This document shows, piece after piece, positions 1,161-55,070 of a DNA stretch of 64,000 nucleotides. This stretch comes from Hericium rajendrae. Taxonomy: Eukaryota; Basidiomycota; Agaricomycetes; Russulales; Hericiaceae. A program made the translations under genes and the position numbers. The DNA lies in NCBI GenBank assembly GCA_033439255.1, contig JAVRDV010000018.1:124001-188000 (forward strand), read 5' to 3'. Below the pieces are notes generated by a model. It was not told the DNA's origin and did not search any database. It worked only from the letters and a program-made list of their open reading frames with translations. Positions within the stretch are counted from its first letter, which is position 1, and every line of letters starts with the position of its first letter.

Positions 1161-1289
1161 ATTTCCTACTGTAGCTCGTATTTTCTTTCAAACTGTTCAA
1201 TTCTTTGTATATACATTCAATTCAATTCTATGTACATAATTTTGAGAGAATGCCAGCCTACATTGGTCTCAATTTCATGCCTCATCTGG

Positions 1290-1708
1290 AAAAAGTGTCC
1301 ACACTACTTTAGCCTACAGTAGAAAATATGATCTACAGTAGCTATAATAGATTATATATTTTCTGTAGCATCTGTTGATAGGTGGATCTCTATTACAACT
1401 ACAGGTAGCCATCTGTAGCCATCTGTAGTGATCCGTAGCAGTCTGTAGATGGTATATTTACTATAGCTTATGTTAGCTACTATAGCTTATGTTAGCCACT
1501 GTAGCTTATGCTAGCTACTGGAGTGCTATATTGCAGTATGTGAGATTCAGTATAATATATAAACCACAATAGTCCCTCATATCACCTCTCCAACAATATA
1601 TCATGCAAAACATTTTAATTTGGCTGGTTACAACTGTACACTAATAGTACTAATACATAAAATCTCCCCCTCCATATCCTTCTGCACCCACAGCACCCAA
1701 GCCCTCAT
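1290..1708 (-). repeat. CTACAG-rich tract, minus orientation
   Basis: Dense CTACAGTA/CTATAGCTTA motifs. Read on the minus strand it follows the palindrome at 1709-1740 and ends near 1290 with ACACTTTTTCCAGATG. It is an inverted homologue of 20,515-20,830: shared blocks include the stretch around TATATTTTCTGTAGCATCTG and the final ACACTTTTT. It may be a promoter/intron segment of a transposon. Positions 1161-1289 between this tract and the preceding element show nothing recognisable. Confidence 0.6.
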
Positions 1709-1740
1709 GGGAACTGTTTTGCTGTAGCAAAACAGTTCCC
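1709..1740. repeat. Palindrome p1
   Basis: A 32 bp near-perfect palindrome: each 16 bp arm begins GGGAACTGTTTTGCT, and 15 of 16 positions pair, the exception being the centre. Relatives lie at 3452-3487, 8021-8056 and 20,483-20,514. p1, p3 and p4 sit at the junction between a GC-rich body and a CTACAG tract; p2 has neither next to it. Confidence 0.8.
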
Positions 1741-3110
1741 ACGCACTATAGAACACAACATGGGCATGTGGGGGTCAGTGTTGGGCATGGAGAAGTTGGT
1801 GGGGGTGTGCGGGAGGTGGCAGGGGCGCACAGGGGTCAGCACGAGCATGCAGGCATCGGTGCGGGGTGCATGCGAGTTGGCGGGGATGCGGGGCATCAGT
1901 GCATGTGTGTTCGAGTCGGCGCATGCACATAAGAGGCAGCATGCGGAAGTTGGCACAGGTGGGTGGGAGGTGGTTGGAGCGTGTGGGAGGCAGCGCGGAT
2001 GCGAAGGAGTCGGCGCAGGCGTGCAGGCATTGGCACGGGTGCGTGGGCATCGGCACGGGTGCACAGGCATCAGCAGATGGGTGCACAGGGGTGGCAGACG
2101 GGTGCGCGAGGGTGGCAGACAGGTGTGGGAGGTGGCAGAGGCGTGCGGGAGGCAGCGCCAGTGTTCAGAAGTCAGCGTGGATGGGGAGAGGCAGTGGGAG
2201 CACGCGGGAGGCAATTGAAGCGTGCGAAAGGCGATGGGAAGCACGCGCAAGGCAGTTGGAGTGCACAGGAGGTGGTGAGAGTGCGCAGGAGGCGGTGGGA
2301 GCATGCAGGAGGCAGCATGGGTGGGTGGGAGTCAGCGCGGGGGGTGGGAGGCGGCAGAGGTGCACGGGAGGTGACAGAGGCGTGCGGGAGGCGGCAGAGG
2401 CATGCAGAAGGCAGTGGGAGTGCGTGGGAGGCGGTGGGAGCGCGCGGGAGGCGGTCAGAGTGCACAGGAGCAGCACAGGTGGGTGGGAGTTGGTGCGGGG
2501 GATGGGAGGTGGCAGAGGTGCACAGGAGGCGGTAGGGGCACGCGGGAGTCAGATGCCACCTCTCGCCCACCCCGACCCTGTGCACTTACTTCTCCTCTCG
2601 CAGGCCTACACCGACTCCCTCTGCCTCCCGTGCCCATCCTCCAGCTTCCGCACACCCCCGTCGACTCCCTCACGCCCGTGCTGACTCGCTCGTGTCCCCA
2701 TCGACTTGCTCGCACCCCTGCCACCTCCCGGCACACCCGCGCTGCCTCCCACATGCTCTCGCCGACTTACTCACCCCTGCGGGCATGTGGGAGTCGATAG
2801 GGGCATGCGGGACGTGGGCTGGTGGTGACGCACGCAGGTTGACGGGGACGTGTGAAGGTCGGCGGGTGTGCGCACGAGTTGACGTGAGTGCGAACAAGTC
2901 GACGGGGGAGCGTCGGGCTTGGTATGGGTGCACGAGAGGCGGCACAGGCGTGCGCGAGTCGGTGGTGGTGCGAGCGAGTCAGCAGGAGCGCAAGCGAGTC
3001 GGTGGGGCACACAGAAGTCAGAGTGGGCATGCAGGAGTCGGGGTGGGCATGTGGGAGTCGATGAGGGTGTGCGGAAGTCGGCGAGGACGTGCGGGAGGTG
3101 GGAGTGTACA
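1741..3110 (-). repeat. G-rich minisatellite-like body
   Basis: About 1.37 kb of degenerate repeats built from GTGGGAGGCGG, GTGCGGGAG and GGCATGCGGG-like units, G-rich on the plus strand up to about 2540, C-rich to about 2770, then G-rich again. Open frames occur in all six frames because stops are rare in this composition; they give repetitive Arg/Gly/Ala or Pro/His/Ser polypeptides and no domain. I interpret it as the body downstream of hairpin module h1, read on the minus strand. Confidence 0.6.
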
Positions 3111-3115
3111 AAACA

Positions 3116-3192
3116 AGAGTATCGCTCGACACCACGAGTGATACTCTCTTGATTAGTACAAGAAAGCTACAGCAAAAAATGTAGCTACTCAC
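3116..3192 (-). other. Intron-hairpin leader module h1
   Basis: On the minus strand a predicted 45 nt intron runs from 3192 (GTGAGT) to 3148, with the branch-point-like ACTAAT just before CAAG. It is followed at once by a hairpin at 3147-3116 whose arms are AGAGTATCACTCG and CGAGCGATACTCT. The single mismatch in the stem (A opposite C) fits a CpG to CpA change. The upstream leader at 3450-3193 includes a CATATATGG box. The body lies downstream at 3110-1741. The same arrangement recurs at 3604, 6032, 6550 and 53,212. Confidence 0.65.
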
Positions 3193-3451
3193 CTTTATTC
3201 CCAGCCCGACAAGAATCAAAAAAAGATTAAGAGACACTTACAGTAAAAATTCCACCATGAGGAAGGGGTGGGTGGGTGGAAGGAAGACGACGTGGCAGGC
3301 AAAGTGAAGTTGCACTTGAGTCGAGCTGCATGGGGCCACGCGGCCCAATTCATTTTATTGACCATATATGGGCAACAAAACAGCACGGCATGCGGCGGGC
3401 CGTGCGTGCGCGCATTTTGACTTTGAACAAAAAAAAAAAGGTAGAGGGCGT

Positions 3452-3487
3452 GTGGGAAACGTTTGGCTACAGCCAAACACGTCCCAC
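3452..3487. repeat. Palindrome p2
   Basis: A 36 bp palindrome centred on GTTTGGCTACAGCCAAAC with outer arms GTGGGA and TCCCAC; 14 of 18 positions pair. Relative to p1 and p4 the inner stem carries G-C where they have T-A, a paired change. It lies between two divergent hairpin modules, h1 leftward and h2 rightward. Confidence 0.7.
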
Positions 3488-3603
3488 GACTGTTTTTTCT
3501 TACTTGCAAGGTACATTTTCCTCTGTCAATGGACAACTAACATGCATTTCTCAGGTATTCTAAGCTGGATTCAATACAGGGAGGAGCTGCAGATGGCCAC
3601 ATA

Positions 3604-3680
3604 GTGAGTAAAGTTGTTCTTTTGACCTTGTTTTCCACTGATACAGAGAGTATCACCTGTTTAAATACAGGCGATACTCT
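3604..3680 (+). other. Intron-hairpin leader module h2
   Basis: A predicted 43 nt intron at 3604-3646 (GTGAGT donor, CACTGAT branch region, ACAG acceptor) is followed directly by a hairpin at 3647-3680 with arms AGAGTATCACCTGT and ACAGGCGATACTCT. The outer stem matches the family; the inner stem differs on both sides but still pairs apart from one A-C mismatch. The upstream leader is 3490-3603 and the body is 3681-4612. Confidence 0.65.
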
Positions 3681-4612
3681 TGACTGAACCGCTCGACATG
3701 CCACCGACCCGTGTGCCCCACTACCAAACCCCATGCATGGTCACCAACCTCTGCGCGCCCACACTGACCTCACAATGCCTCCGCCGACTTGTGCGTGCCC
3801 CTGCTGACTTGTGCACCCCCACCGACTTGTGCACCCCCACCGACTCGCGCATCCCCACCGACTCGCGCATCCCCACTGACCCCCACCCATCTACGCCGAC
3901 ATGCATGCACCCTCGTCGACCCGCACACGTCACGGCTGACCCACACACGCTGCCACCGACTGCCGCTGACCCAGGCATACTGCTGCCGACTCGCGTACAG
4001 CCCCCGCAGCTCAGACACGCATGTGCCAACTCGTGCCCATCTCTGCTGACCCGCGCCCATCTCCGCTGACCTGCGTGCACCTCCACCGACCTCTGTATGC
4101 CTCCGCCGACCTGCTCGTATTGCCGGCAACATGTGCATGCACCTACGACATGCGCTCTCCCTCTCTGACTCGCACAGCCCCCCTACCAACTCGTGTACAG
4201 GCCCATCGGCTCACACACACTCCCATCGACTCACACACACCCCCGCTGATTCACACATACCCCCACCGACTCCCATGCACCTCCGTCGACTCCCGCGTAC
4301 CCTCACCGACTCCTACGTGCTCCCACCAACCTCTGCACATCCCCGTCAACCTGTGTGCATCACCGCTGACCCAGTAAGCCCCTGCCAACCTGCACGCACT
4401 GCCGCCAACCTGCACGCACTGCCGCCAACCCACACGCACTGCCGCCAACTTGTGGGCACTGCCGCTGATCCACATAAGCCCCCGCTGACTTCCACACGCC
4501 CCCTCTGACCTTTGTGTGCCCCCTCCGACCTTTGTGCGCCCTCGTCGACTCCCGTGCACCCTCGCCAACTCTCGCATGCCCCCGCCGACTCCTGCGCATC
4601 CCGCATGCCCTA
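3681..4612 (+). repeat. C-rich minisatellite-like body
   Basis: Degenerate tandem units around CCACCGACTCGCGCATCC, CTGCCGCCAACCTGCACG and similar. Several adjacent exact or near-exact copies are visible near 3825-3875 and 4388-4450. Stop-poor in both directions with no recognisable protein domain. It follows hairpin module h2 and abuts a CTATAG tract of opposite orientation at 4613. Confidence 0.6.
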
Positions 4613-4845
4613 CTCATCAGAAAAATCAGTTTTCTACATAGCTTTCAGCCAATAATATGAGTCCTATGGTAGTGCTATGAGTCCTATATATTTTGGCAGT
4701 ACAGCTATATAGCTCTATGAGACCTATCATAGCTTCTATAGCTGTTGGTGAAGGGTATATAGAGCTATGTAGTTATAAGTGACAGCTATGACAGCTATAT
4801 AACATCATAGGCTTGCTATCAATGCTATGGCTCCTACTGTGCCAT
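4613..4845 (-). repeat. CTATAG-rich tract, minus orientation
   Basis: Tract of AGCTATAG/CATAGCT motifs. Read on the minus strand it ends with GATTTTTCTGATGAGTAG, the counterpart of the TTTTTCAGATG end of the other tracts, though here the AG dinucleotide of a splice acceptor is not kept. Positions 4846-4971 are AT-rich and show nothing else recognisable. Confidence 0.6.
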
Positions 4846-4971
4846 ACCTAGACCCCAGAGGTATGCCAAAGGCAAGAGCATCCCAGGTGAAATATATGAG
4901 TTCAAAATATATATATTATTGTCTCAAGGATAATAAACAGCAGATAATTTTACTATACTAAGTAGGGATCA

Positions 4972-5950
4972 AGTACGTGGATGCACACGAGGCGCGGCGG
5001 GCCGGCGCGCGGGAGGCGCGGGGCATGGAGTCCGTGCGCAAGGTGGCGCGCCCGTACGCGAGATACGGCGGGCGTGCGCCAGGCGGCAGGCTGCGGCGCG
5101 CCCGTGCATGACGTGGCGGGCGTGCGCGCAGGCGGCGCGCTGTCCATACACCAGGCACGGTGAGTGTGCGCGGGGCGCGGGGGACGTGCTCGAGGCGTCG
5201 GGGGCAGCGGCGGGAGGCGACGGAAGGAGGCGGGCCCGTGCACGAGCTGTTGGCGTGCGACGGGCCTGTGCGAAGGGCGCTAGAGGCTGGCACGGGGTGC
5301 GGGGGCATGCGCGACACGGCAGGTCCGTCCGCGACGCTGCAGGCATGCGCGCTCGCCGGTGGCCACACATGCGGGAGGGCGGCGTGAGGCGTGAGATGCG
5401 GGGACGGCGTGCGAGGCGTCGGGCTGCGGCGCGCCTGCGCATGGCCGTGCGCGACGTGCGCGCATGTGCGTGCTGCCCGGCATGCGCTGGCATGCGCGTC
5501 CCGCGTCGTGCTGCGCTGGGGTGCCCGCCCCCGGTCGCGTGCGATGTGCGCGTCCCTGTCCGTGCGCGTGTGCTGGCATCCCCGAGCGGCTGTGGCCATC
5601 CGCCGGCCATGCGTGCGCTGGCGGGGCCTTGTGTGCACTAGCGGGGCCGCACGCACGCAGCACGGCGGGGCGGGCCCGTTCGCGAGACGGGGAGGCTCGC
5701 GGAGCGTGCCTGGCGCACGGGCCAGGCAGCAGCGCCGTAGGTGGGACGACGGGGCCATGCTGGAAGGGCAAAGCCCGTGCACGAGGCGACGGGCTCGCGT
5801 GCGCGTCGTCCGCGGAGGTGCGTACGCCAGCGAACGCTCGTAGTCGTTGGAGACGGCGCGCCAGGTCATGGCGGCGATGTCGGGGGGTGGGCCGATGGGG
5901 GAGAGACGGCGGCGGGAGGCGAAGGGGAGGGAGGGGCACGCGAGGGGGAA
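4972..5950 (-). repeat. CpG-rich, stop-poor body of hairpin module h3
   Basis: About 1 kb of extremely GC-rich, CpG-dense sequence (GCGCGC, CGTGCGC, ACGGCGGG motifs) with long open frames in all six frames. The predicted products are Ala/Arg/Pro/His-rich and have no domain, and open frames of similar length on both strands argue against coding. It is bounded abruptly by AT-rich sequence at 4970 and by hairpin h3 at 5959. It looks like a less deaminated counterpart of the bodies at 1741-3110 and 3681-4612. Confidence 0.6.
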
Positions 5951-5958
5951 GTAAGTCG

Positions 5959-6032
5959 AGAGTATCGCTCCGAACGAGCGATACTCTCTGAGTTAGCACG
6001 AACGAACGAATCAACATGTTTTTTTTACTCAC
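5959..6032 (-). other. Intron-hairpin leader module h3
   Basis: On the minus strand a predicted 45 nt intron runs from 6032 (GTGAGT) to 5988 (GCTAAC branch point, TCAG acceptor). The hairpin follows at 5987-5959 with a perfect stem AGAGTATCGCTCG on one side. This is the best-preserved hairpin of the family. The leader upstream (6237-6033) is pyrimidine-rich with repeated CCGTCCCGCCTCC units. Confidence 0.7.
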
Positions 6033-6473
6033 CTTTGAGGCCCTCTGCGTCCTACTAACTTCCTCCGGTGTTCGATCCGATGAGGGCGAGAAGAGGATGG
6101 GAGACGGGGGAGAGAAGGCGGGACGGACTTGCGGAGGTGGTGCGAGATGCGGGACGGGAGGCGGGACGGGCGCACCAGACAACGTTGCCGTAGCTCGCGT
6201 CTAGGCGTTGCCAGCTCCCCCGCGCCTGGCACTGGGCCTGCGCAGGCTCTTGAGGGCTTGCGTGGGCCGTGGAACGCTCGAACGAGCAGGCGCGGGCTGT
6301 AGGAGACAGCCGGGGGCGTGGGCGTGCAGCGATGACACGTCAGCGCATGTCGGGGGCGAGGGCGAAGGCGTGGGGACTGTCGAGGGTGCGAATGATGCGC
6401 GGGAGTGGAGGGGAGGTGTCGAAAGGGGGTCGAGGTGCCGTGGAAGGTCCGAGGCCGAGTGAAAAGAAAAAAT

Positions 6474-6550
6474 GAGAGTCTGGCTCGATAACGAGCGAGA
6501 CTCTCAAGATTAGTACATTACAACGAGAAAATAAAAGCTTAATGACTCAC
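6474..6550 (-). other. Intron-hairpin leader module h4
   Basis: On the minus strand a predicted 48 nt intron runs from 6550 (GTGAGT) to 6503 (ACTAAT branch point, TTGAG acceptor), followed by a hairpin spanning 6505-6474 with arms GAGAGTCTCGCTCG and CGAGCCAGACTCTC. Relative to the family, one A-T pair has become C-G on both arms. The leader upstream extends to about 6890 and starts back-to-back with the TATATAA promoter at 6942. Positions 6033-6473 between h3 and h4 are GC-rich leader/body sequence without a recognisable gene. Confidence 0.65.
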
Positions 6551-6941
6551 CTGGGATCCCCTTAGCTCCTACAAGATCCTTCCGACTTCGAATTGGAGGA
6601 GGAGCGACGGAGAGCGAAGAGGATGGGAAGAGACAGGGTAGGAAGGTATTGGAGGACAAGTCGAACGACGCGCCGTTCAGTACAGCTACCGAACATGCAC
6701 GAGTTCGAATGTTTTCGAGCTTAGTAAATCGAAACAAATCGTATCAACTCTGAAAAAAAGAGACAGTATGGCGTACGATCATAGCATTCGATCGAATAAG
6801 ATACATATCTATTTAAAGCATCGTAAGCTACTGGGCAGCGAAGTAACGTTTGTGAAATCTGATACTTAGCCTCTGACGTGGTGCCCGGGCCGAGCTCCGG
6901 CAGCCATATTTAGGGCTCCGCCGGGCAAACCCGCGCTCACC

Positions 6942-7240
6942 TATATAACCCTCGCACGACGCGCGTTCTCTCTCTCTCTTTAACCACTACATTCCCCCTT
7001 CGCTCCGGCTTTCCTCGGGCCTTTCCTCTTTACCCTCGGTAAGTCTTTCTTCTTTAGGTTTGCTGTCCTATACTTATGTCATTCATATCTAAGGGTTATT
7101 CATTTTCGCTTTTCAACACTTTTGGTATGTCTTTAAATCTTTTGTCACTGTTGGTTTGTTACTAATTAACCTTTTATTTTGTAGCTTATTTTCGCTTTTT
7201 GTAATCTTTGTAAGTCTAGTATACTTATCTTGTATTTATC
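6942..7240 (+). promoter_or_regulatory. TATATAA promoter with splice-ladder leader, copy 1
   Basis: TATATAA at 6942-6948 is followed by CT-rich sequence and a series of candidate 5' splice sites: GTAAGTCTTTC near 7040, GTATGTC near 7122 and GTAAGTC near 7212. The latter two are each preceded by an ATTTTCGCTTTT block. Between them lie acceptor-like TTTTGTAG sites. The same pattern is seen on the minus strand near 25,450-25,080 and 52,800-52,500. Positions 7241-7439 are AT-rich spacer. Confidence 0.6.
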
Positions 7241-7439
7241 TTTTAGTAGTAAGTGTAGTGTTTTTATCTTTTTGCAATTAGTAGTAGTATGTTTGTTTAT
7301 AGTAGTATAATAATTTGAATATAATTTTGATGTATTAAACAAAGTTTATATTTGTGTGATCATTTTATTTGGACCTTGCTATATGAATTTGATTAAAATT
7401 TATAGTTTCAATAGGCTTTATTGCTTCAATAGATATGTC

Positions 7440-7710
7440 AGGTCTACATATTAAATATAGAATATATAAGTGGCATAAGTCTCATAGCTTTCATAGACAC
7501 TTATAGCTTTCATAGCTAGGCATGCTATGGTAGCTGCATAGTCAGCTCTCATAGCTATGATAGTACTCCATAGCATCACCTTTTAGCTTCATAGCACTAT
7601 ATAGCATTTCCCTTTAGCTATGCTGGCTATAAAGAAAAGGGCAGTGCTATGGAACTATGAAATCTATGTAGACTTTATAGAGCTATGTAGCACTTGCAGA
7701 TTTTTCTGAT
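7440..7710 (+). repeat. CTATAG-rich tract, plus orientation
   Basis: ATAGCTTTCATAG, TAGCTATGATAG and similar motifs throughout, ending with GATTTTTCTGATGCTGC near 7697-7715. Equivalent tracts are at 4613-4845, 21,556-21,815, 52,010-52,235 and 54,440-54,690. Confidence 0.65.
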
Positions 7711-8012
7711 GCTGCCTGCATGCCCCGCCACCCTGCACGCCCTGCCGCTGCCAACTCGCGCATGCCCCACACCTCGCTTAGGCACACATGCCACTGCTGA
7801 CTTGCACGCGGCCCCTCCGACCCACTGTGCAGTGCCACTAACTCATGCACACCGATCCCTGCAGGCCACCACCAACTCGTGCATGCCCCACCAACTTGCG
7901 CACACCCCTACCGACTCCCATGCATCCTTGCTGACCCATGTGCATCGCGCTGAACTGCACATCCCCCCCTCCGACCTGCGCATGCCCAACACATCACTAC
8001 AAACCCCTGCGA
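7711..8012 (+). repeat. C-rich minisatellite-like body, short
   Basis: Degenerate units of the type CCACCAACTCGTGCATGCCC, mostly TG/CA instead of CG. No protein domain. It lies between a CTATAG tract and palindrome p3. Confidence 0.55.
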
Positions 8013-8020
8013 ATTGACAT

Positions 8021-8375
8021 GTGGGAAATGTTTTGCTGCAGCCAAACACTTCCCACAGGGAGAGATGTAATCATATGTTGGCCTTATAAATTAGATATGC
8101 AATATATGATAACCTGGCTATATTGTGAGCTACAATGCAGAAATTTTGAACTGCTGGACTTGTCAACCTAGCATCTGTGAGCCTGCAGATTGCCTCTACA
8201 GTGCAAAAATCCCATGAACTACAGCAGCTACAGTAGATTGCTCCCTGATACATGTAATACCGGGTTGAAATCAGTACCTGAACATCGGCTATCATATGTC
8301 TATTTGTAGTACAGGCACTGATACTGTAGCATAACGTAAGATCGCCCTGGCTATCGATCAAAAAACACTTTTTCC
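8021..8375 (+). repeat. Palindrome p3 and CTACAG tract
   Basis: The 36 bp palindrome at 8021-8056 has arms GTGGGAAATGTTTTGCTG and CAGCCAAACACTTCCCAC, pairing at 16 of 18 positions. It is followed by sequence with scattered CTACAGTAG motifs that ends AACACTTTTTCCTGATGCTG near 8375, the same terminal phrase as 1290 (minus) and 20,830 (plus). Confidence 0.6.
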
Positions 8376-8449
8376 TGATGCTGCATGTTTGTCTCCTCGA
8401 GACTTGGGCACCTCGGGCTCAGCCACTGATGTTTAGCATTCTCTGAGCT

Positions 8450-14449: not shown

Positions 14450-17400
14450 GAGTTTCACTGCTCAGATGTTAGGAGACAACAGTACTCCTGTGAGCACAAT
14501 GAAGCACTGGCAACAGCCAGCACCATTGTGGCCCATACCCTGAGGGTACACCCATTGTCTCGACATGAGACCTGTTTAAATGAAGGCCTAACAGAAGCCA
14601 TCAAAGCTATCAATAGCATTCCATGACACGTGCTGCACCATGAAGGTTCCATCAATCCTGTGAAACCTTCCCAGTCAATCGCCATACAGGCCATCGAGAG
14701 TGATCTGATAGGACCACTGTTGCTCCCCACCCAGTCTCCTTCTCCATTTGTGGAAGAAGTCAAGGATGCAGAGATTGATATCAATCAGCTGCACTGAACC
14801 TATGGCCTTGTCCTCCCACTGGATGACTTAGCCATCATTTGCTGCCATGTGATAAATCTGGCCAAAAAGGAGGAGGAACCCCAACTGCAATGGCTATACA
14901 ATGTGAACATACAGCACACATTGGCATCAGAACAATCCAAGAGGGACCAGTGTAAAAACCAGACTCTTGCAGCCAAGGTTGTCATTAACAACTCCCAACT
15001 GTTCACATTGTTTGACTCTGGTAGTACTGCAAATGGTATAAGTCCAAAAAGCACACATCTTGCTAAAGCAGATGTGTTTGAATTGCATGAACCAATGACG
15101 TTGCAACTCAGATGTGTAGGGAGTAAATCCTGCATATCCTACGGGACTAATACCTGGATCAGCATCACTGATCAGACAATGGAATGTTACCTAGACATAG
15201 CAAACATTGACCACTATGATCTGATCCTAGGAACACCATTCCTAATAGCTCACAAAGTCATACTCGACTTCGCACATTGCACAATAAAAATAGGCAATAA
15301 AGTCATAGAAGCAATGACCATCAAAGAAGAAAAGAAGACTCAACAGCGTGCAAGGCAAAGGCATACCTCCTACCCAGCTGTGTGTGCTGCACAACTGGAG
15401 AACATGCACGAAGATGCATAAAATGCGGCTGCAGGATCTACAAGAGTAGAACCTGCCTCCTCAATGAGACAGAGCAAATACACTCCATCTTGTGATGAGA
15501 TAACACCATCACTAAGATTGCCCAGCAATCCCACATCCCATTTGTCAGTGGATCAACCAATAAAATACATGAATAAAAATGAGTGCAAGATGCTCTGTCA
15601 AAAAATCGAGATAGCACTTGATCAGGCTGTCCCAAAATTACGATCTCAGCTCACGACTGAGGATGTCCCCAAATTAAGGGAACACTGGTATGAATACAGA
15701 AAGGACATAATGTGCCCTGTACCACTGGAGTTATCTCTGTTCTATGAAGTCAATCATCAAATACCATTGGTCAATGACATGAAAGAAGATCACTATCATC
15801 TTCCTAAGTGCCCTGAGGTGCTAAAGCCTGAGTAATGAAGAAGATACAGTGATATTCTGACATGGGCTGGTGGGAATCAAAGACTGTTTCCCAAGCTGCC
15901 CCACTTCTTTGTAACCCAAAGAAGTCCAAAAAACTATGCACAGTTATTGACGTGTAGAAGCACAATGACAATATGTGGAAAGATGTGACACCTTTCTCTG
16001 ATCAAGACCAGATCAGAATGGATGTCGCCTGAGCGAAATACTGCTCCAAGATTGACATGAGTGATGCATATGAACAAATCCACATTGAGCCAGATGATAT
16101 CTGGAAGACCACATATGCCATGGTCTATGACACATTCATGAGCCATGTCATGCAGCAAGGAGACTGTAATGCCCCAGCAACATTCCAGCAGCTCATGACA
16201 GTGATATTCCATGATTGCATTGGAATATTCATCCACGTTTACTTGGATGATGTATTCATATTCTCTAGACCATGAAGAATTGAAACTGATGTTCAACCAC
16301 CTTAGAAATAGCCACCTATTCCTAAATCGAGACAAGTGTGATATCTATTCCAAAAAGATGGACTGTTTTGGACATGTGATCAACAATTGTGGACTTCACA
16401 CCGATCATGACAAGATGTCGAAAATACATCACTGGCCCATGCCAAAGAACTTCAATGAAGTTCAATGATTCCTGGGACTAGTTCAGTACCTAGCACAATT
16501 CATGCCGGACCTGTCACTATACACATCTCCATTATCAGGGATGGTACAGAATGGTCACACTTTCAAATGGTGTGCAATGCACACTCAATACTTTGAAATG
16601 ATCAAGGCGATGGCATGTAAAATGCTGATTCTGAAGCTGATCAACCCCAGAAACCTGGACATGATTTGGGTTATCTGTGACACCTCTACATATGGCATTG
16701 GGACTATGTACGGACAAGGCCTGACTTGGTTGACCTGTCGTCCAGCAGAATTCATGTCCAAGAAGTTTTCAAATGTGCAGCATAACTACTGCATGTTTGA
16801 ACAAGAGACAATCGCCATTTTAGAGGCACTTTCCAAATGGTCCAATAAACTTATCAGGTGCAAGATCTCGGTGGTCACAGACCATAAATCTTTGGAGTTC
16901 TTCAAAACTCAGAAGAACCTATCACTGCATCAAACACACTGGATAGAGTTCCTATCCAAGTACGACATGAAAGTCCAGTATGTGGAAGGGAAACTCAACA
17001 AGGTCACTGACTGTTTCTCGTGATACTATGAGTCTGTCGACAGTGACCTCATGGGGACAGAATACATCAATATTGGATCTCTCCCCAGCCTGAATCACCG
17101 AGATTTGAGCCATGCAGCTGCACCCATGAGAACTTTGCGAACAAGTTTCCCCTCAGGATGTGAAAGCTCCAGAACTAGATTGCCGAGCATGCACTAGCTC
17201 CCTGCCAAATAGCATGAGCTGGGTCACAGTACATGACCCCCGCATTATGACTGCCCTGACCGATGGTCCACCCCTCCACGAGTGGGTCGAAGGCAATGCT
17301 GACTGGACATTCCTCATCAAAGACAGATATACCAATGACCTGTTCTCTGGCAAAGTCCTGTCCAACATGAACAGTCACCCATCCTTCACCCTACAAGATG

Positions 17401-19003
17401 GGTTGATCTGGTCTAAAACCAGGACAGGATCTGAGGTCCTGTGCATACCTGAGGTTGTCCTCAAAGGGTGTAGCATCAGAGAAATCATCCTCGACACTGC
17501 CCACACCACCATCGGCCACTTCGGCATGCAGAAAACCTCTGAATATGTGTGTCAATGGTACTGGTGGCCCAAAATTGGACATGACTTGGACAAGTTCTGC
17601 TCAAGCTGTGGGTCTTGTCAAATGACAAAGACTCGCAACCAACCCCCAGCAGGACTTCTCTATAGCATGCTCATCCTGACGCACCTATGGGCGTCAATAG
17701 GAATGGACTTTGTTAGCCCCTTCCCCAAGGCCCAAGGCCTCGACTACCTCTGGGTAGTTATTTGTCGCCTTACATCTATGGTACATTTGCTTCCCAGTAC
17801 CATGCAGACTAAGGCATCAGAGGTGGCTCATCTCTACTATAAAGAGATAGTGTGACTCTATGGGGTACTGAAGTTGATCATCTCTGATAGAGATGCAAAG
17901 TTCACATCAACATTTTGGCAGGAACTCCATCGGCTCATAGGTACAAAACTACTCATGTCCACCTTATTCCATCTCCAAATGGATGGTGCCTTAGAGCATG
18001 TGATCTGCTCTATAGGGCAAATCCTGAGAAACATGGTGTCCCCTAGTCAGGAAGACTGGGTAGGCCAGATTCCCATGGTAAAATTTGTGCTGAATTCCAC
18101 TGTCAGTTCGAGCTCGAAATTTGCCCTGTTCAAACTGAACTACGGGTACATGCTCACCATGGACAAGCAACCCATCACTAACATCTCATATAGAGGAGTG
18201 AAAGCATTCGCAGAATGTGCTCGCATGCATCTGGACATCACTCATGATGCTATCATCGAGAGCCATGTCAATCAGGCATACTACACTAATGCATGCTGTA
18301 CACCTGAAGTTGAATACAAGGTCAATGACCTTGTGTATCTCTCAACTAAGAACCTGAACATGCCGAAGGGTCGTGCAGCGAAACTGCTACCCAAATATAT
18401 TGGGCCATTCAAGGTCCTCGAGAGCAACCCCAGCACCTCCAACTACAAGCTGGAGTTGCTCAAGGAGTTACAGTGACACTGAATACACCCCATATTCCAT
18501 GCCTCTCTCCTCCATCATCACGAGCCCAATAACAACATACTATTTCTGTGCTGGGAGACAAAATTGTATTACAATTTTGGTCAACTCGATGATGAAGAAT
18601 GGTATGTCAAGGACATTGTTGGACATCAATGGGTGTGCAACAAAGTCCAATTCCACATCAAGTAGTCCCTAGGTGACCACTCATGAGAACCATACGAGAT
18701 CTGTAAAGATCTCAAAGCTCTCAATAGATACCTCAAGCTTCAAGGGACTACCAACTGGCGTTCCCTCCTGCACAAGTACACAGTGACTTCTACATGAAGT
18801 GTCAAAATTGAAGATGTGTCTGGGCCCCCAAATCCCCCCAGGCATGCACCTTGGCAAATGCTGAGGAAGCATGCATAGCCACTGCACACTTCTGGAGCTC
18901 AAAGCTGTTAGACTTCTGGATGGATTCAGTTGTGTGTGTCTGATGGTGCCTTGCAAAAATACTGGCATCAAGGTGTGGTCTCTTCCACTTCCCCTCCTCA
19001 ATC

Positions 19004-43544: not shown

Positions 43545-46212
43545 TCACGTTAAATCAATAACATCGTTACTAGTTATGTCCGGCATTGCTGTCGATCTGC
43601 TAGAATGTCCATAAGACTTGCTGTTAGCCAATCTTGAAGCATTCGCAGCCCTTGAGCGTGCGACTGGGCGAGGGGTTATATTTTGTCGACGCATAGGACG
43701 GGTATGGCTGGTATCTGAGTCGCTCGATAACTCGATGACAGTAGCCACCATGTCCTTCGCTTTCGGAACAGATGGAAGGCATGTCTTATTGGTGTGTGCA
43801 GAAATAGGCGGATGCGATGACTGTGATGCCAGGATTTGAGTGGACGATAAGTCACTTATCGAGCTTCGTGTTTCAACCCTTTGCTGAGACATGGAAGTCT
43901 TCACAGGAGAAGCATGCTCTGTGCGATGCCGGGCTGTCTTATGAGGACTCCGAGCAATAGTAGGTGAAATAGAACCGGATGACTTTCTCCGACGCCTGTC
44001 AGACGAAACTCGATCAACGGGTCCTTTCACGGGTGGAAGGAAAGTGGGAAAGGAAGGCGGGTGCACGGGCAGGGTATGAGACTCGTCGTCAGTAGGACCT
44101 GATTCCAGAAGCATTGGAAAAGGGCGCAAGTTCACTTTTCTACGCATAGATTGTGAATCTTTTGGTGTATCTCCTAACGTACCCTCCAATGAAGGTAATG
44201 CCGGCAAAGTGTCTTCATCCGAGCTGAGGTCATACGCCGCGACAGAGGATTCTGTGCTCCATGCTCCCCTTTTCTGCACAGCAAAGCCAGTAAAGTTGCT
44301 TGAACGGCCTGCGTTCGGATGAGAATTGGCACATGATGATGCCGTAGAACCCACTGCAGGTAACTTATTTCTTGTTGTGGATTTAATGATGGTCTTGACA
44401 GCAGCATTGGGAGGGATGACCTCTTCTGATTCACTATATGAAATCTTGCTTCCATCGCCATCTGGTCCCTGTACCTGCGCAGTGGTCACTTCCTTTCGTC
44501 CCTCCCCATTCGGCTCGGTACCAGTTCTTTTCCGTATTTTTGTATTTTGTTTCTTCTGCTGAAACTCTCTGACTAAATCCGGACGTACGAGCTCCACCAT
44601 GCAACCAGGCATCCACATCCGAAGATGAGTATAAGGATTGGTGATCTGTTTGTCCTTTCTTCCGACCAGCTCTTCGTCTGTGTCTTCTTCAGAAGCGTAG
44701 ACGTCATACGTTGTATCTGCGGGCTTCCGAATACCTTGTATACCGGCTTCCGAAAGGCGCACCAATTGCGCAGGTGCGATTTCCAGGCGATACTCAAGCA
44801 GGCCATCAGTAGAGGCATGCGTTCGTGTGGAGTGAATTTTGACAATCAATTCTTCATCGTCTTCATCGTCTTCACCCACAGCCTTGAGATCCATGGACGA
44901 GAAATGTTTTGTCAGCATTTTCGAGGGGGTTCCGATCACGGCTGGACAGTCTGGCCTCCTTTGCTTCGACGGTGTCCCGAGCAGATCATCATGAATGTTC
45001 CCATTCCCAGACTTCTCAGATTCTAGTACAGCGCGGCGTAGGATACGCAAGACGGCGCATGGCCAAAGCACGGTGCGGAAGCGCTTTATGATAATGTCCT
45101 TCAAGCCCCACTCGAAGTGGACTTCGCAGAGGTGTGCAAGCTTGCCAAGATCTGGTTCACGTTCCCATGTTGGGTGTGTATGCGTGCGCTTCGCGCCGAC
45201 GTCATTCTCAGAGGTGATGGGGTTTGCATAGGAAAGTAAAACCTTGACGTCTGGGAAGTCATCCGAGACTGCTTTTGCCAGACTCGGCTTTTTGGAGCCT
45301 ATGTGACCTTTCGAGTTCGTGCGTAGTTCCTTGCGCAGTTCCTCTCGCCAAAGGTCGAGAAATGTGGGCAATTGATCTTCAGGCATCGCGGGAGACCAGC
45401 CTGGTGATAGTCGCCACCACTCAGGAGACCAATGAGGACCATACCGCCTCTAGTGAGTTGCACAGAAGGATCGGAAGTGAATGACTTTGATCTGTAGACA
45501 GCCGTGTGGTTCCCGTCATCCCTGCCGGCAGAGTTCTTGATCACATGCATTCGGTTTCCGGTAAGTGCTGTGCTGGGGCTAAAGAGGCAACATGAGTTCA
45601 CTCCTTCTGAAATCATACTGAAAAGCTTACTTGCGAATAACTATTTTCGCACCAAAGAGAAAGGTGTCCACATCATCGGAGAGAATCGCGTCGATAATAT
45701 CTATATTATTGAGATATGCTAGCTCAGCTTCAGCTTCGCCAGGAGCCTGACGAATATAAGTTTACAATGATATCGACCATCAAGTATGCGTACCATTCTC
45801 CATTCGAAACCAAATGCTTCTATCATATTCTTCATACCGTCTACAAGCCAATGATGTTTTCTGTTGATCCGTTTACCTCTCTTCACGCTTGGGCGTTTAG
45901 GACCGTCAAAGACGAAAAGAGGCAAGAATGGCGTGCTCATCAACCGCGAACAGCGAAAGAAGAGGGTCCGCAACTCAGGATTTTCACCCTCTCGTCCATA
46001 TGCGGCATGAAAGAACCAGATTGATGCATCAATTCCGATCCGCAAGCCTCGCGCACCGCTAGGATTGGCCTGAAACCCGTGAATCACAGACAAATGAGTT
46101 AGGGAGTGCGTCTCTGCTGTTGGTCGCAGAATCTGCAAAGATCATAAACCTATAAGTTCCCACCCATATCATAGAAAGGAGTACTGACATCCCAAAGTCC
46201 CGGCACGCCCAT
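43545..46212 (-). CDS. Rad2/XPG-family Holliday-junction resolvase (GEN1/YEN1-like), apparently damaged
   Basis: GEN1/Yen1 cut Holliday junctions in the nucleus. Exons on the minus strand: 46,212-46,189, 46,132-45,794, 45,746-45,631, then 45,578 onward; the introns keep frame. MGVPGLW and GIDASIWFFHAAY mark the XPG N-region. APGEAEAELAYL with SDDVDTF (residues about 122-149) is the XPG I-region with its acidic metal ligands. LLSGGDYHQAG near 212-220 carries the last catalytic Asp. Just after this, near 45,390, the frame changes without room for an intron, and the next frame resumes at LPTFLDLWREEL, so about 30-40 residues expected for the helix-two-turn-helix DNA-contact region (a GCG...A...GFG pattern) are missing. 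The rest, including an acidic region and a Ser-rich tail, is open to 43,545. This is either a pseudogene or a sequence error. A MITE lies about 60 bp upstream of the ATG. Confidence 0.8.
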
Positions 46213-50500: not shown

Positions 50501-52003
50501 GACGTTTCTGACTTGCATGTGCCTGATGCCATGATGAGAATGGGCTCATACCGCTCTTGTCCGAACACACCAACTGCGGCGACCATAGACTCCTGAGCAT
50601 AATGGCATGATGGTTCAGCGCCATGCACTGCCTCGACAATTTTGAGGATCGAATTCAGGTCTGTCATTGCAAGATCGAGTCCTTCATTGTGTTCACAACA
50701 AAACCCGACAATTTGATTTGTAGATTTCCACCATCGAGCATGCTGATTCAGTGCTAGACCATCGATCATCAAGGCAAAACCACGCATCATCCTCTTAACA
50801 GGGACAGAGACAGCTTGAGTGCAGGAAATAATGTTTTGAGCAATTTCTGATGCTTTGGGATGTGACAAGCATGGAACAATGGTGGGTGATAACATGCGAT
50901 TTTGGACCGTAGTGGCAGAAGGTAAGCCAAAGGCCTTAGAGAGCGCGAACAAGCCCTTTCGGCCTGAAAGATGTCGAAGAAGCCATGCTAGATCAAAGTC
51001 AAACTCATCAAAACCATGGACCTTGTAGACACCCTCAACTGCCTGTTCAATGTGGGACAGGATAGCATGGGGACTCATTCCCTCTTTGAGTGCAAGGTTG
51101 AGCAGTTGACGAATGCGCTTCACGTCTTTTGTCGCAATTGCCATTATCAATCGCTTGTAGTTATCAATGTGAATGATCAAGTGATGTACTCTTAGAGCCT
51201 GGTTATTAGCCTAAGAAGCCCGGTCAGTCTCTTGTATAATTTCTTATGACAGAAAGTGGCCTAACCTGTATTTTCAACCAGGCAATCTCCTCTGCTTTCT
51301 GGTCCAGCTTTGCAACAAGTTGAGCATGGCTGAGCCATTTATATGGCCAATGTCCTGTCTCCGTGGCTTGCACTCACAGGTCAGCCAGATGAATCGCCTG
51401 TGGAGCCTGGAGAAGTCGGCATACATGGCAAGCATTTAATTGGTCCTTCCACTGTGTGCAGCAATCCGATCTTATCAATATGCAGATTCCTCCATGGTCA
51501 CTGCTCTTGAAACCAGCCAGGCAGAATCCAAGGGTTCCATCGTGATCTTCAAAGATCTGCCATGGGAACATTGTGAAGACCGACCCTACATGCCATTCGA
51601 GCAGGACGCCATTGCAGACATCCATTTCACCCCTGTCTGAGCCACTCACTTCACTTCTCGTCTCAGACTCTGCTCCATCATCTTCATCTCCAGACAGGTA
51701 AGGCTTGTTGCCATTTTGGACTGGCTTAGATGCTGATCTCCATGGAATATGAGCTGGATGAAGTGAAGCACTGTCTGCAGTAGACAAAAGGCCTTGAACT
51801 CGGAGAGAGCTGGTGAAGTTCCCTTCTGACAGAGCTCGAATCGAGGGCAGGGAATGCTGTGGAGTCAGTGGAATTGTTCTAATGGCCGGAAGTGAGTGCT
51901 GTTGCTCATGGCTGGCTACCACTGTCGGTGCTGACATCTGCTGTTGCTTTCCTAGCTTCCTCTGCTGTGCCTTGCACTTCTTGCTGTCGCAACATCTGAA
52001 AAA
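47512..52003 (-). CDS. Large DNA-transposon protein of a widespread agaricomycete family (P-element/THAP9-like core)
   Basis: Multi-exon minus-strand gene. It begins after TTTTTCAG near 51,998 with a Cys-rich start (CCDSKKCK), then a Ser-rich region to 51,374; a short coiled-coil exon (LVAKLDQKAEEIAWLKIQ); and exon 51,180-50,209 with FALMIDGLALNQHARW, WIVSTDGD and MCPDPKHILKR. Further coding is at 50,010-49,651 and 49,691-49,002 (VWNSGRI, MCPFGGNTYPGI), 48,785-48,309, and a C-terminal zinc-binding end (CGFCG, CSLCGPDP, FWKYAMYDHI) near 48,030-47,512. The MIDG...DGDA...DxKH spacing resembles RNase H-fold transposases of the P/THAP9 type, and I recognise the domain order from many agaricomycete hypothetical proteins; assignment to the P superfamily is inference. 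Several frame breaks make this copy probably inactive. Confidence 0.7.
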
Positions 52004-52009
52004 TGTACC

Positions 52010-52235
52010 AGTGCTATATTGCTTTATATAATCTATATAGAAGCTATAGCTCCATAGCAATCCCCTTTTATATATAGAACTTCATAGCTACAGAGCAGTC
52101 TATGATAAGCTATATAGTCAGATAGGATTGCTATGCCCTGCTATGATAGCTATGATAGCTATCAGAGTATAAGGCATAGCTATGGTAGCTATAAAGGCTA
52201 TGTCACTTATACTATGTATGTATATTATCATATCA
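52010..52235 (-). repeat. CTATAG-rich tract within the transposase leader
   Basis: AGCTATAG/CATAGCTAT motifs. On the minus strand it ends ACATTTTTCAG/ATGTTGC, directly before the first Cys-rich coding block. This is the clearest evidence that the terminal motif of such tracts is a 3' splice site. Confidence 0.7.
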
Positions 52236-52249
52236 TATTTAGCTTAATA

Positions 52250-52800
52250 GGATTGCTATCTATTTAATATCATCTCTAAGTAATATATTGCCTCACAATG
52301 CTATAAAAACATTTGAATTATCTGAATTGTTTTATAGGCTTCACAATCATTATATCTTAGATAAACAAAACATCGAAAATTTAAACACATATCATTTTAT
52401 CAAGAGAGACTAATATACAACAAAACTACATTATACTATAAAGTTAGAGAGTCTTAATTATAACATAGACTAGACTAGATTAGATAAAAGATACAACTCA
52501 AAGACTTACTCTGCAAAGGTAATAAAAAGCGAAAATGAAACCCTAAAGTCAACAATTGATTGTAAGTAAACAATAAGAGGAAGAACATTACATATAAGAC
52601 TTACCAAGAGAAGAAAAAGCGAAAATTTTGAAGTCTACAAAAATAAAAGATAAGTATAAGTATTAATTAACAACATAACAAGATGAGGACTTACCAAATA
52701 TAAAGAGTTGAAGAAGGAGAGAGAGGAGAGAAGGACAAAAGACGAGAGATGGTAGTGGTAGGGAAGAGAGAGAGGACGTGTGTCGTGCATGCCTTATATA
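52250..52800 (-). promoter_or_regulatory. TATATAA promoter with splice-ladder leader, copy 3
   Basis: On the minus strand TATATAA (52,800-52,794) is followed by CCTCTCTCTCTTCCC and then three donor-like GTAAGTC sites near 52,696, 52,604 and 52,513. The last two each follow an ATTTTCGCTTTTT block, with TTTTGTAG, CTTTAG and TTTGCAG acceptors between. AT-rich sequence separates this from the CTATAG tract. Confidence 0.65.
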
Positions 52801-53029
52801 GGCGAGCACGTCGGAGCCCGAATTACAGCTGGCCGGTGGTTGCCGGGTGCTGCAGCAGAGGCTGCTGCTTTAGATCTCACTAAGGTAGACAGGATGCTCA
52901 AGACCGTACAGTAGCGTAGACACATATCTGGCTCATTCATAGTTTAGAGACAATAATTTTATACATACCTCTTTTTTCTTGAATTTTATAACATTTGATT
53001 TGATTTGTTGGACTCAAAACTACGAGCCG

Positions 53030-53276
53030 TGCGAGTCGAGTGCTATTGGCTGCACTCAATGTGCGACTTGACACGTCTCTTCTCTCCATCTTCCACCTTG
53101 TCTCCCCTTGTCTCTCCTCGTCTCCCCTCTTCCTTTATGCAAGCAATGCACGGTGCCGATCAACATTCGGAAGGATCAGCAGGAGGGTCGCGGGCCTTCA
53201 GGTAAGTAAATACTATCGTCTCTTTTGTCTTCATGCTAATCAAATGAGTATTGCTCGTTGCAAATGAGCGATACTC
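53030..53276 (+). other. Intron-hairpin leader module h5, divergent from the transposase
   Basis: The leader from about 52,960 is CT-rich (CTTGTCTCCCCTTGTCTC near 53,096). A GTAAGT donor at 53,212, CTAAT at 53,236 and an AG at 53,247-53,248 define a 37 nt candidate intron, the shortest of the family. The hairpin 53,246-53,276 has arms GAGTATTGCTCG and TGAGCGATACTC with two wobble-type pairs. It is transcribed away from the transposase promoter at 52,800. Confidence 0.6.
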
Positions 53277-54355
53277 GTGTCGTTACACGATCAACCCACG
53301 TGCCCCCACCATACGAGCCCACCCCATGCTGCTCCCTCAACAACGCCATCGTCGATGCCGATGTCGGGTCTCATTGTCATGGCAATGAGGCCCGACTAAA
53401 TGTCATACGACGTGCTCGCCCTCTACTGCAACACCAACCCACAGGCCCTGGTCCCACTTCCACTCCCATCCCCGACTCGCTCTCACCTCCCACTGCCAGC
53501 AGAGATGCATGCACGTGGCCCTGCCAGCGTGCTTGGGCCACGTGCGCTGGCAAGTCCACACGCATGGCCGCGAATGATCGCCAGTGCATCCACGCCTGCG
53601 CACGCTGCGCGGGCAGCTGCGGGCAATGCAAGGTGGTGGACGGCCGTGCCAGCACATGCATCCGCGTGCTGGCAGCTGTGGACGACTTGGCCAGCTTGTG
53701 CACGTGCAGGGCTACTCGTGGCTGCAGGCGACCCCAATGGTCGCAGACTGTCCTGCCAGCCCATGCACAGCGCAGGCAGCCATGCATGGCCCCGCTAGCT
53801 CACGGGCTGTCACGCACGTCCCGCCCTGCCCTCGCCCTGCCCTGCCCTGCCCTCGCATGGTTGCAGATGACTGCGTCACCACGTATGCACACTCACGCAT
53901 GGCGAGCGCCACCGCGTGCCTTGCCAACGCGTGGGTGGTCGCTCGCTGCCACGCCCTCGCCTTTTTGTGGCCGCGCGTCACCTGCACACGGCCATGGATG
54001 ACTGCGCCACACACGCATAGCACAGGCAGCCATGCACGGCCCTGCCAGTATGCGGGCTGTCATGCACGGCTCCCCTGCATATGGCCACAGATGACCGTGC
54101 CAGTGCGCGTAAGCACGCATAGCGAGATAGCCGCACACGGCACTGTCTGCATGTCCGAGGCCACACAGGCCTCACGCACGTCGGCGACGGCATGTGTGGG
54201 CAGCTGCGGGCAGTCCCATCTGCATGCATAAGGCCCTGCACACCGGCAACAGCATGGTGATGGCACATGGAGCCATGCATGTCGGCGACGGCATGGGCAT
54301 GGCAGTTCCGACGATAGGTGCCATGTCGTCTGCGCATGCCCTTGTATGTGCATGC
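53277..54355 (+). repeat. GC-rich, stop-poor body of hairpin module h5
   Basis: About 1.08 kb with a mix of CpG-rich and TpG-rich segments, repeated phrases such as CACGGCCCTGCCAG and GGCAGCCATGCATGGC, and long frames on both strands. Products are Ala/His/Cys/Arg-rich with no domain. It is intermediate in CpG content between the 5 kb and 20 kb bodies. Confidence 0.55.
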
Positions 54356-54439
54356 GAGATCTCTAATTAGGAACTTAGATACTTGAGTAAAATAGTAGAC
54401 TACTTGTAATGTCTTGTTCTGTAAATTAAAAAAAATTCC

Positions 54440-54690
54440 TCAGTGTCTAGCTCATTGAACATAGCCAGTATAATAAACATAGGAGCCATAGCTCCCCTTA
54501 CTAAGTAGTATAGCTCTATATATCTAATACTACTAGCTATAGAGGCTATATATTTTACACTCCTTGCTATGGAGGCTATGATAGTTGTCATAGCTCTATA
54601 TAGCTTGACAAGTCAAAACTATAGACTCCATAGCTCACCTATAGAACTCATAGTTTGACCCTTTGCTATATAAAAATCAGATTTTTCAGA
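54440..54690 (+). repeat. CTATAG-rich tract, plus orientation
   Basis: AGCTATAGAGGCTATATA-type motifs ending with CAGATTTTTCAGATG near 54,676-54,690, an acceptor-like end identical in style to that at 52,000. Confidence 0.65.
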
Positions 54691-55070
54691 TGAATGCAAG
54701 GTGAGTGCATGCCTCGAATGCTGCGTTATATTGATAGTGACTCCACATAGATCACATGGAGTAGGAATGAAGGCTGTTGCACTCCTGATCATTGCCGGCA
54801 AGGTTGAGGTGTGGAGCAATCCTAGGTGTGCATTCTCGGTGGCACTGCATGGCCCAAACGTCCATTCTACTAGCTGAACACATACAAATCGGAACCTATC
54901 CTGCAGACTAAAGTCTGGGTCATAGAATTCAACCTCCTAAAAGTCTGTATCATTGTCAGTACTGCTTTCTGAGCCACTATCTGTGTCGAAAGAGTCATTT
55001 ATGATATCAATAGAATCTGAGCCTGGAGAAGAATGAAAACAGAGTACGATAGGGCTGCAGTGATCATTCA
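54625..55070 (-). pseudogene. Remnant of a transposon protein gene
   Basis: Minus-strand coding-like pieces: an acidic Ser/Asp-rich segment (DSFDTDSGSESSTDNDTD) near 55,000; FRFVCVQLVEWTFGPCSATE near 54,870; and a possible C2H2-like piece CDLCGVTINITQHSRH near 54,745. Interrupted, with no complete frame. The source element is not identified. Another weak minus-strand frame closes at 55,080 (CRHCETLAPWD). Confidence 0.4.

Follow-up and report, generated by a model that had tools for sequence, protein, structure and literature searches.

Why should a block of sequence that reads like a short intron followed directly by a hairpin occur at five places within a single stretch of fungal DNA? The stretch in question (termed here the window) comprises 64,000 nucleotides of the Hericium rajendrae genome, positions 124,001 to 188,000 of contig JAVRDV010000018.1. 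A preliminary description of it proposed that each block combines an intron of 37-48 nt with a second exon that starts with a selected hairpin or, alternatively, that each block is an introner-like mobile unit. The analysis described here leads to a different reading, to which we assign a probability of about 60%: the block would belong to a leader intron that has a hairpin at its branch point and a distal acceptor, and that is carried by non-autonomous Plavaka-like transposons. One part of the earlier interpretation survives, namely that motifs resembling splice signals are coupled to a pairing-selected hairpin on mobile DNA; its placement of the intron end probably does not, nor does its introner-like unit.

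Five modules in the window

All five intron-plus-hairpin blocks (termed here modules) are present in the window sequence (Table 1). A covariance-model search of the window recovers each of them at 48.8-56 bits (E 5.5e-8 or better), the model having been trained on 39 hairpins that include these five copies; five further matches are the same palindromes on the opposite strand. Four of the copies lie where they had been placed, whereas the donor of the fifth starts at 53,202 instead of 53,212. The replacement of an A-T by a C-G pair on both arms of the copy at 6.5 kb is genuine, and this copy additionally carries one mismatched pair; among the matches listed, C1:2728982 and C2:526797 have the same swap in stems that pair throughout. 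That the copies are hardly alike outside the block is only partly true: they occupy related elements with common ends and, within families, module-bearing elements also have exon and promoter sequence in common.

Table 1. Positions in the window of the module parts and of the transposons that carry them.
Feature	Position	Strand	Remarks
Donor GTGAGT, first module	3187..3192	-	
Branch-point motif CTAAT, 3 nt and hairpin, first module	3115..3156	-	
Donor GTGAGT, second module	3604..3609	+	
CTGAT, 3 nt and CCTG-type hairpin, second module	3638..3681	+	
Donor GTGAGT, third module	6027..6032	-	
CTAAC, 3 nt and hairpin, third module	5958..5996	-	The only one of 17 aligned copies without the shared distal AG
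Donor GTGAGT, fourth module	6545..6550	-	
CTAAT, 3 nt and hairpin with A-T to C-G on both arms, fourth module	6474..6513	-	
Candidate distal acceptor, fourth module	6377..6378	-	First AG past the hairpin, preceded by C; prediction only
Donor GTAAGT, fifth module	53202..53207	+	
CTAAT, 3 nt and hairpin, fifth module	53236..53278	+	
Outer transposon	1283..8380	.	Ends CATCTGGAAAAAGTG / CATCAGGAAAAAGTG, flanked by CT and CT; divergent modules 3192(-) and 3604(+)
Nested transposon	4615..7711	-	14/15 identity between terminal repeats, CT duplicated at the target; carries the tandem modules 6550(-) and 6032(-)
Third transposon	51993..54692	+	Terminal repeats 13/15 alike, 2-bp duplication AA; 53.2 kb module

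Elsewhere in the window, an integrase zinc-binding domain (PF17921) and an adjoining ORF at 17160-18476 look like a retrotransposon fragment, and a host-type gene with a GEN1 C-terminal domain lies at 43545-45386 (-). The GEN1-like protein encoded by the latter matches one of Hericium alpestre at 81% identity across 46% of its length, followed by other Russulales.

A genome-wide family with fixed geometry

A pattern that consists of the branch point, 3 nt and the outer stem (CTAAYNNNGAGAGT..ACTCTC) occurs at 312 places in the 46.8 Mb genome and nowhere when the pattern is read backwards, which is the control used for the genome pattern searches. Against this control, GTGAGT followed by a spacer and one arm is found at 72 places (control 0), the corresponding GTAAGT pattern at 71 (control 0), the perfect two-arm hairpin at 155 (control 0), and one arm with up to 1 mismatch at 427+441 (control 22+24); a looser pattern gives 417 overlapping matches (control 4), which are not taken as a copy number. 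The window has no Rfam 15 match above the gathering score, and viral contigs give no exact match.

Fifty oriented copies, which remain of 51 after removal of the reverse reading of L013, define the geometry of the module. (Outside this set are copies with a decayed donor or stem, at L031 position 2462, L036 position 2468 and L037 position 3999, the last of which was added for the hairpin pairing counts, as well as the window copy at 3604, which exceeds the mismatch limit, and those of L055 and L056.) The donor starts 43-50 nt upstream of the hairpin sequence GAGTATC, which in all 50 copies is separated from the branch-point A by exactly 6 nt, the search having allowed 4-8. In one subfamily, a module with a CCTG-type stem and another with a CTCG-type stem point away from each other at a distance of about 400-570 nt; examples are the window element at 1283-8380, L018, L027, and C1:1245161 with C1:1245692.

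The carrier transposons

Comparison of 40 genome loci with the window indicates that the alignable unit is an element longer than the module. Among 29 distinct elements--that is, 31 module rows in which two terminal repeats agree at 11/15 positions or more, the left repeat of L016 being perhaps wrongly paired--lengths are 2.6-4.0 kb, ends read CATC(A/T)G and 24 elements have an identical 2-bp target duplication, as does the outer window element. What moves is not the block on its own; it sits inside transposons of 2.6-4.0 kb with terminal inverted repeats, the ends of which lie roughly 0.9-2 kb from the module and hence too far outside it for an introner-like unit. In the window, the outer transposon is interrupted by the nested one, which is inserted within a C-rich array of the former, and on either side of this insertion the outer transposon aligns with L027 at 87-90%. 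C-rich, imperfectly repeated arrays follow the hairpins on the sense strand (window about 2000-3110, 3690-4610 and 4960-5950); in some copies such arrays have no AG over 410-537 nt.

The transposons of Agaricomycetes termed PlavakaB have CATCA..TGATG ends and target duplications of 2 or 3 bp, as described in the accessible text of PMC12730594. The hairpin elements resemble these in their 2-bp duplications and similar termini; they differ in that many of their ends read CATCT (the ends vary by copy, both being CATCA in window 4615-7711 and both CATCT in L045), in being short and without a transposase domain in the loci examined, and in containing the intron-hairpin module, which that same text leaves unmentioned for PlavakaB. 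The Plavaka domain PF18759 has at least 132 matches in the genome, with pieces counted apart, and none of those listed falls in the hairpin loci examined, as judged by a by-eye comparison of coordinates in which domain matches are lower bounds. Two loci, one a Plavaka locus and the other a candidate one, have ends in common with hairpin elements. The left 268-484 bp of L057 are 85-91% identical to hairpin elements, no hairpin being present within the 3 kb of that locus, and a 122-bp end of the Plavaka locus L054 is shared with L028 at 74% identity. Because ends are shared in this way, Plavaka transposases are probably what moves the hairpin elements. The 15-bp repeat with which L057 starts, at C4:1680460, has an identical inverted counterpart at C4:1698936-1698950, and a PF18759 domain lies between the two; C4:1680460-1698950 is a possible 18.5 kb Plavaka element.

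The idea that the module serves the Plavaka transposase itself as a leader was considered and rejected, the module being absent from six Plavaka loci. None of the 143 places with donor and arm lies within 5 kb of a PF18759 match (by eye). Among the 100 of 312 places listed for the outer-stem pattern, hairpin C4:1968475(-) is about 1.5 kb from the PF18759 match C4:1970060-1970947(-), and hairpin C4:1134800(-) about 4 kb from another, because of which a transposase-bearing carrier of the module is possible.

Coding potential and opposite-strand signals

A coding role for the spliced RNA was also rejected: pN/pS is 0.60-1.01 over 15 pairs, indicating no coding constraint. When exon 1 is joined to the first AG past the hairpin in 12 copies, ORFs of 310-384 aa result in 4, of 177-233 aa in 2 and of 13-63 aa in 6, the products being rich in Arg/Pro/Ala; C-rich sequence follows the hairpin, with C accounting for 48% of its first 100 nt. 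On the opposite strand, a TATA-like box (TATATAAGG or TATATAAAG leftwards) occurs 436-468 nt before the hairpin in 29 of the 50 copies, for example at L015:2083-2100, and leftwards of it come CT-rich sequence and then several ordinary-looking candidate introns. To judge from these motifs, the elements may have a divergent promoter, and they look divergently transcribed and non-coding.

Selection for pairing

The hairpin is under selection for pairing. Across 39 sequences, 9 of the 14 pairs have changes on both sides; these yield 20 covariation cells, as against a mean of 4.0 in shuffles that ignore the kinship of the copies (0 of 500) and at most 4 in slid controls. Sixty-one distinct hairpins likewise give 20 cells (shuffle mean 3.1, maximum 9), many of them coming from loci chosen for an exact arm, which biases that set toward perfect stems; 36 distinct hairpins for which the inner stem was not a selection criterion give 12 cells (mean 2.4, maximum 7). 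Loops are 2-12 nt long, as expected for RNA, and the predicted fold contains the hairpin in all five of the window introns.

Where the intron ends

The AGs at the foot of the hairpin lie 5-9 nt past the branch-point A and are nearly all within the stem. In the 61 distinct hairpins, 177 of the 186 AGs have both bases paired, and 59 of these hairpins have an AG in the 3' arm. Past the hairpin, AG is avoided. In 27 family representatives, which have common ancestry, the first 80 nt contain 11 AGs, as compared with 37.6 +/- 5.3 in shuffles (0 of 2000), whereas GA over the same 80 nt is not depleted (1.22 times expectation); farther downstream AG is back at the GA level. In a group of 17 aligned copies, which are relatives and hence not independent, a zone of 87-146 nt contains no AG and 44 GA, where column permutation gives a mean of 5.0 AG (0 of 2000 as low). 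(Two L048 rows, which are non-homologous here and both of which contain AGs in the region, were left out of this 17-row test.) In all but one of the 17 copies the zone is closed by an AG that falls in the same alignment column; 14 of these 16 are YAG (7 TAG and 7 CAG), and the other 2 are GAG. For 13 copies of the group, taking the first AG past the hairpin as the acceptor gives introns of 168-223 nt and a distance from branch point to acceptor of 127-185 nt. Over all 50 copies, the first AG lies 4 to 537 nt past the hairpin, the zone not being uniform outside the aligned group, and is a YAG in 37, which is little over expectation from the C-rich composition.

Because AG is avoided past the hairpin and, in one group, a shared AG closes the zone, we infer that the hairpin is intronic rather than the start of exon 2 and that, in this group, it lies between the branch point and a distal acceptor within a predicted intron of about 168-223 nt. 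The distal acceptor is thus supported for one aligned group; for other copies, the predicted acceptor is uncertain.

The 37-48 nt intron of the preliminary description, which would end at the AG at the hairpin foot and leave the hairpin as the beginning of exon 2, is probably wrong, and we consider that model unlikely. In its favor, AGs do occur 5, 7 and/or 9 nt past the branch-point A in the copies examined. The AG at +5, however, is not conserved (many copies read CCGAGAG or TCGAGAG), and the near-constant foot AG is the GAG within the stem. Moreover, AGs less than 12-15 nt from a branch point can be bypassed, according to PMC1431707, and in the leftward candidate introns the branch point is about 11 nt or more from the AG (examples seen by eye and uncounted). 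Nor does a short intron explain the avoidance of AG for some 80-100 nt past the hairpin.

This avoidance could also be the mark of a splicing trap, in which the donor and branch point engage the spliceosome while the hairpin and AG-poor zone block or delay the second step, with stalled complexes or lariat intermediates as the outcome. Such a trap would fit the fact that the avoidance is strongest by the branch point and weaker with distance, as well as the lack of any AG for 410-537 nt in some copies; it seems quite unlikely, however, given that an AG conserved at a single column, and mostly as YAG, would be needless for a pure trap.

A third view attributes the hairpin to DNA rather than RNA: a palindrome serving as a protein-binding or recombination site, with arms equalised by template switching and with incidental splice-like motifs. 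The arm sequence is indeed conserved beyond what pairing needs, 4 of the 14 pairs being invariant across the 39 sequences, and arm-to-arm correction of DNA could likewise give paired changes. Yet a donor, a branch point and a fixed spacing from branch point to stem accompany the hairpin, its variation in loop length fits a hairpin better than a rigid dimer site, and the one-sidedness of AG avoidance points to splicing, which together render this view highly improbable. Least probable of all is that the module is a relic, inherited from a founding element and now functionless, for even though internal sequence need not matter in elements with neither coding constraint nor, in the loci examined, a transposase, the stem has been kept and compensated and AG avoided while the adjoining AG-free zone of the 17-copy group drifted to a median pairwise identity of 66%.

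Proposed mechanism

On the reading favored here, that of a leader intron with a distal acceptor, the block would be the 5' part of this intron in one transcript of a large non-autonomous Plavaka-like transposon family. The spliceosome would be engaged by the donor GTRAGT together with the branch-point motif CTRAY, which lies about 30-40 nt downstream of it. A stem-loop of up to 14 bp would start after four nucleotides past the branch-point A and its arms would hold about three paired AGs, usually one of them in the 3' arm, at a distance from the branch point that would permit its use. Splicing would then skip the hairpin as well as the zone with few or no AGs, and exon 1 would be joined to the distal acceptor, about 100 nt past the hairpin in the best-aligned group. 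The stem might serve as an element of splice timing and acceptor choice: while it is closed, the distal AG would be used; heat, a helicase or a bound protein could open it, and nearer AGs would then be exposed or the speed of splicing altered.

What the sequences show directly is where the module sits in the elements, its constant spacing, the covarying pairs, the avoidance of AG and, in one group, a common distal AG; that the elements are transcribed and spliced, that a switch exists and that the transposon gains anything from it is what we infer. A stem fixed so near the branch point suggests conditional acceptor choice or timing, a proposal that is clearly less probable than the leader intron itself. 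More specific, and to be regarded as doubtful, is the idea of a transposon-borne switch in which a protein of the host, or one linked to the transposase, recognises a sequence-specific stem at the branch point and this stem determines whether and where the leader intron is spliced. If true, such a switch would control the transcriptional state of the element or its exposure to spliceosome-coupled silencing, of which Cryptococcus provides an example.

In a single genome, hundreds of variants combine a fixed spacing and compensated stems with loops and AG-free tracts that differ in length, so that the effect on acceptor choice of a stem beside the branch point is testable in one fungus. They also raise the question of what maintains selected splice signals in DNA transposons without any recognisable coding content.

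Comparison with known systems

Among known mechanisms, that of the downstream stem in yeast introns comes closest (PMC12350175). In yeast RPS23B, a stem between branch point and acceptor shortens the path between them and can occlude nearer AGs. The module likewise would place a stem of at least 6 bp between the branch point and the acceptor, provided that the distal acceptor is used, the stem being known here from prediction and covariation. Unlike RPS23B, however, a single stem sequence is repeated across hundreds of transposon copies, at a fixed distance directly past the branch point. PMC12350175 also reports that, in yeast, intervals around splice signals are depleted of stems and that stems near splice signals are uncorrelated with the splicing fraction; the latter weakens the timing part of the proposal.

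Human introns with distant branch points have an AG exclusion zone, and very near AGs are bypassed (PMC1431707). The module resembles these in the AG-free stretch ahead of a distant candidate acceptor, which is present as such in the 17-copy group and as a depletion in the 27 representatives. It differs in being fungal and in transposons and in having a conserved hairpin that opens the zone, and its branch point and acceptor are predictions from sequence.

Introners are mobile DNA of which the whole unit becomes an intron in a gene (PMC9860276). Like introners, the elements described here are mobile, have inverted repeats and target duplications, and contain splice signals; unlike introners, they are far longer than their intron, which takes up only a small stretch of their interior. 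Within the literature covered, most subscription journals lying outside it, no title or abstract opening describes such a module in a transposon. Each component of the module has a known counterpart; their combination and fixed geometry appear to be new.
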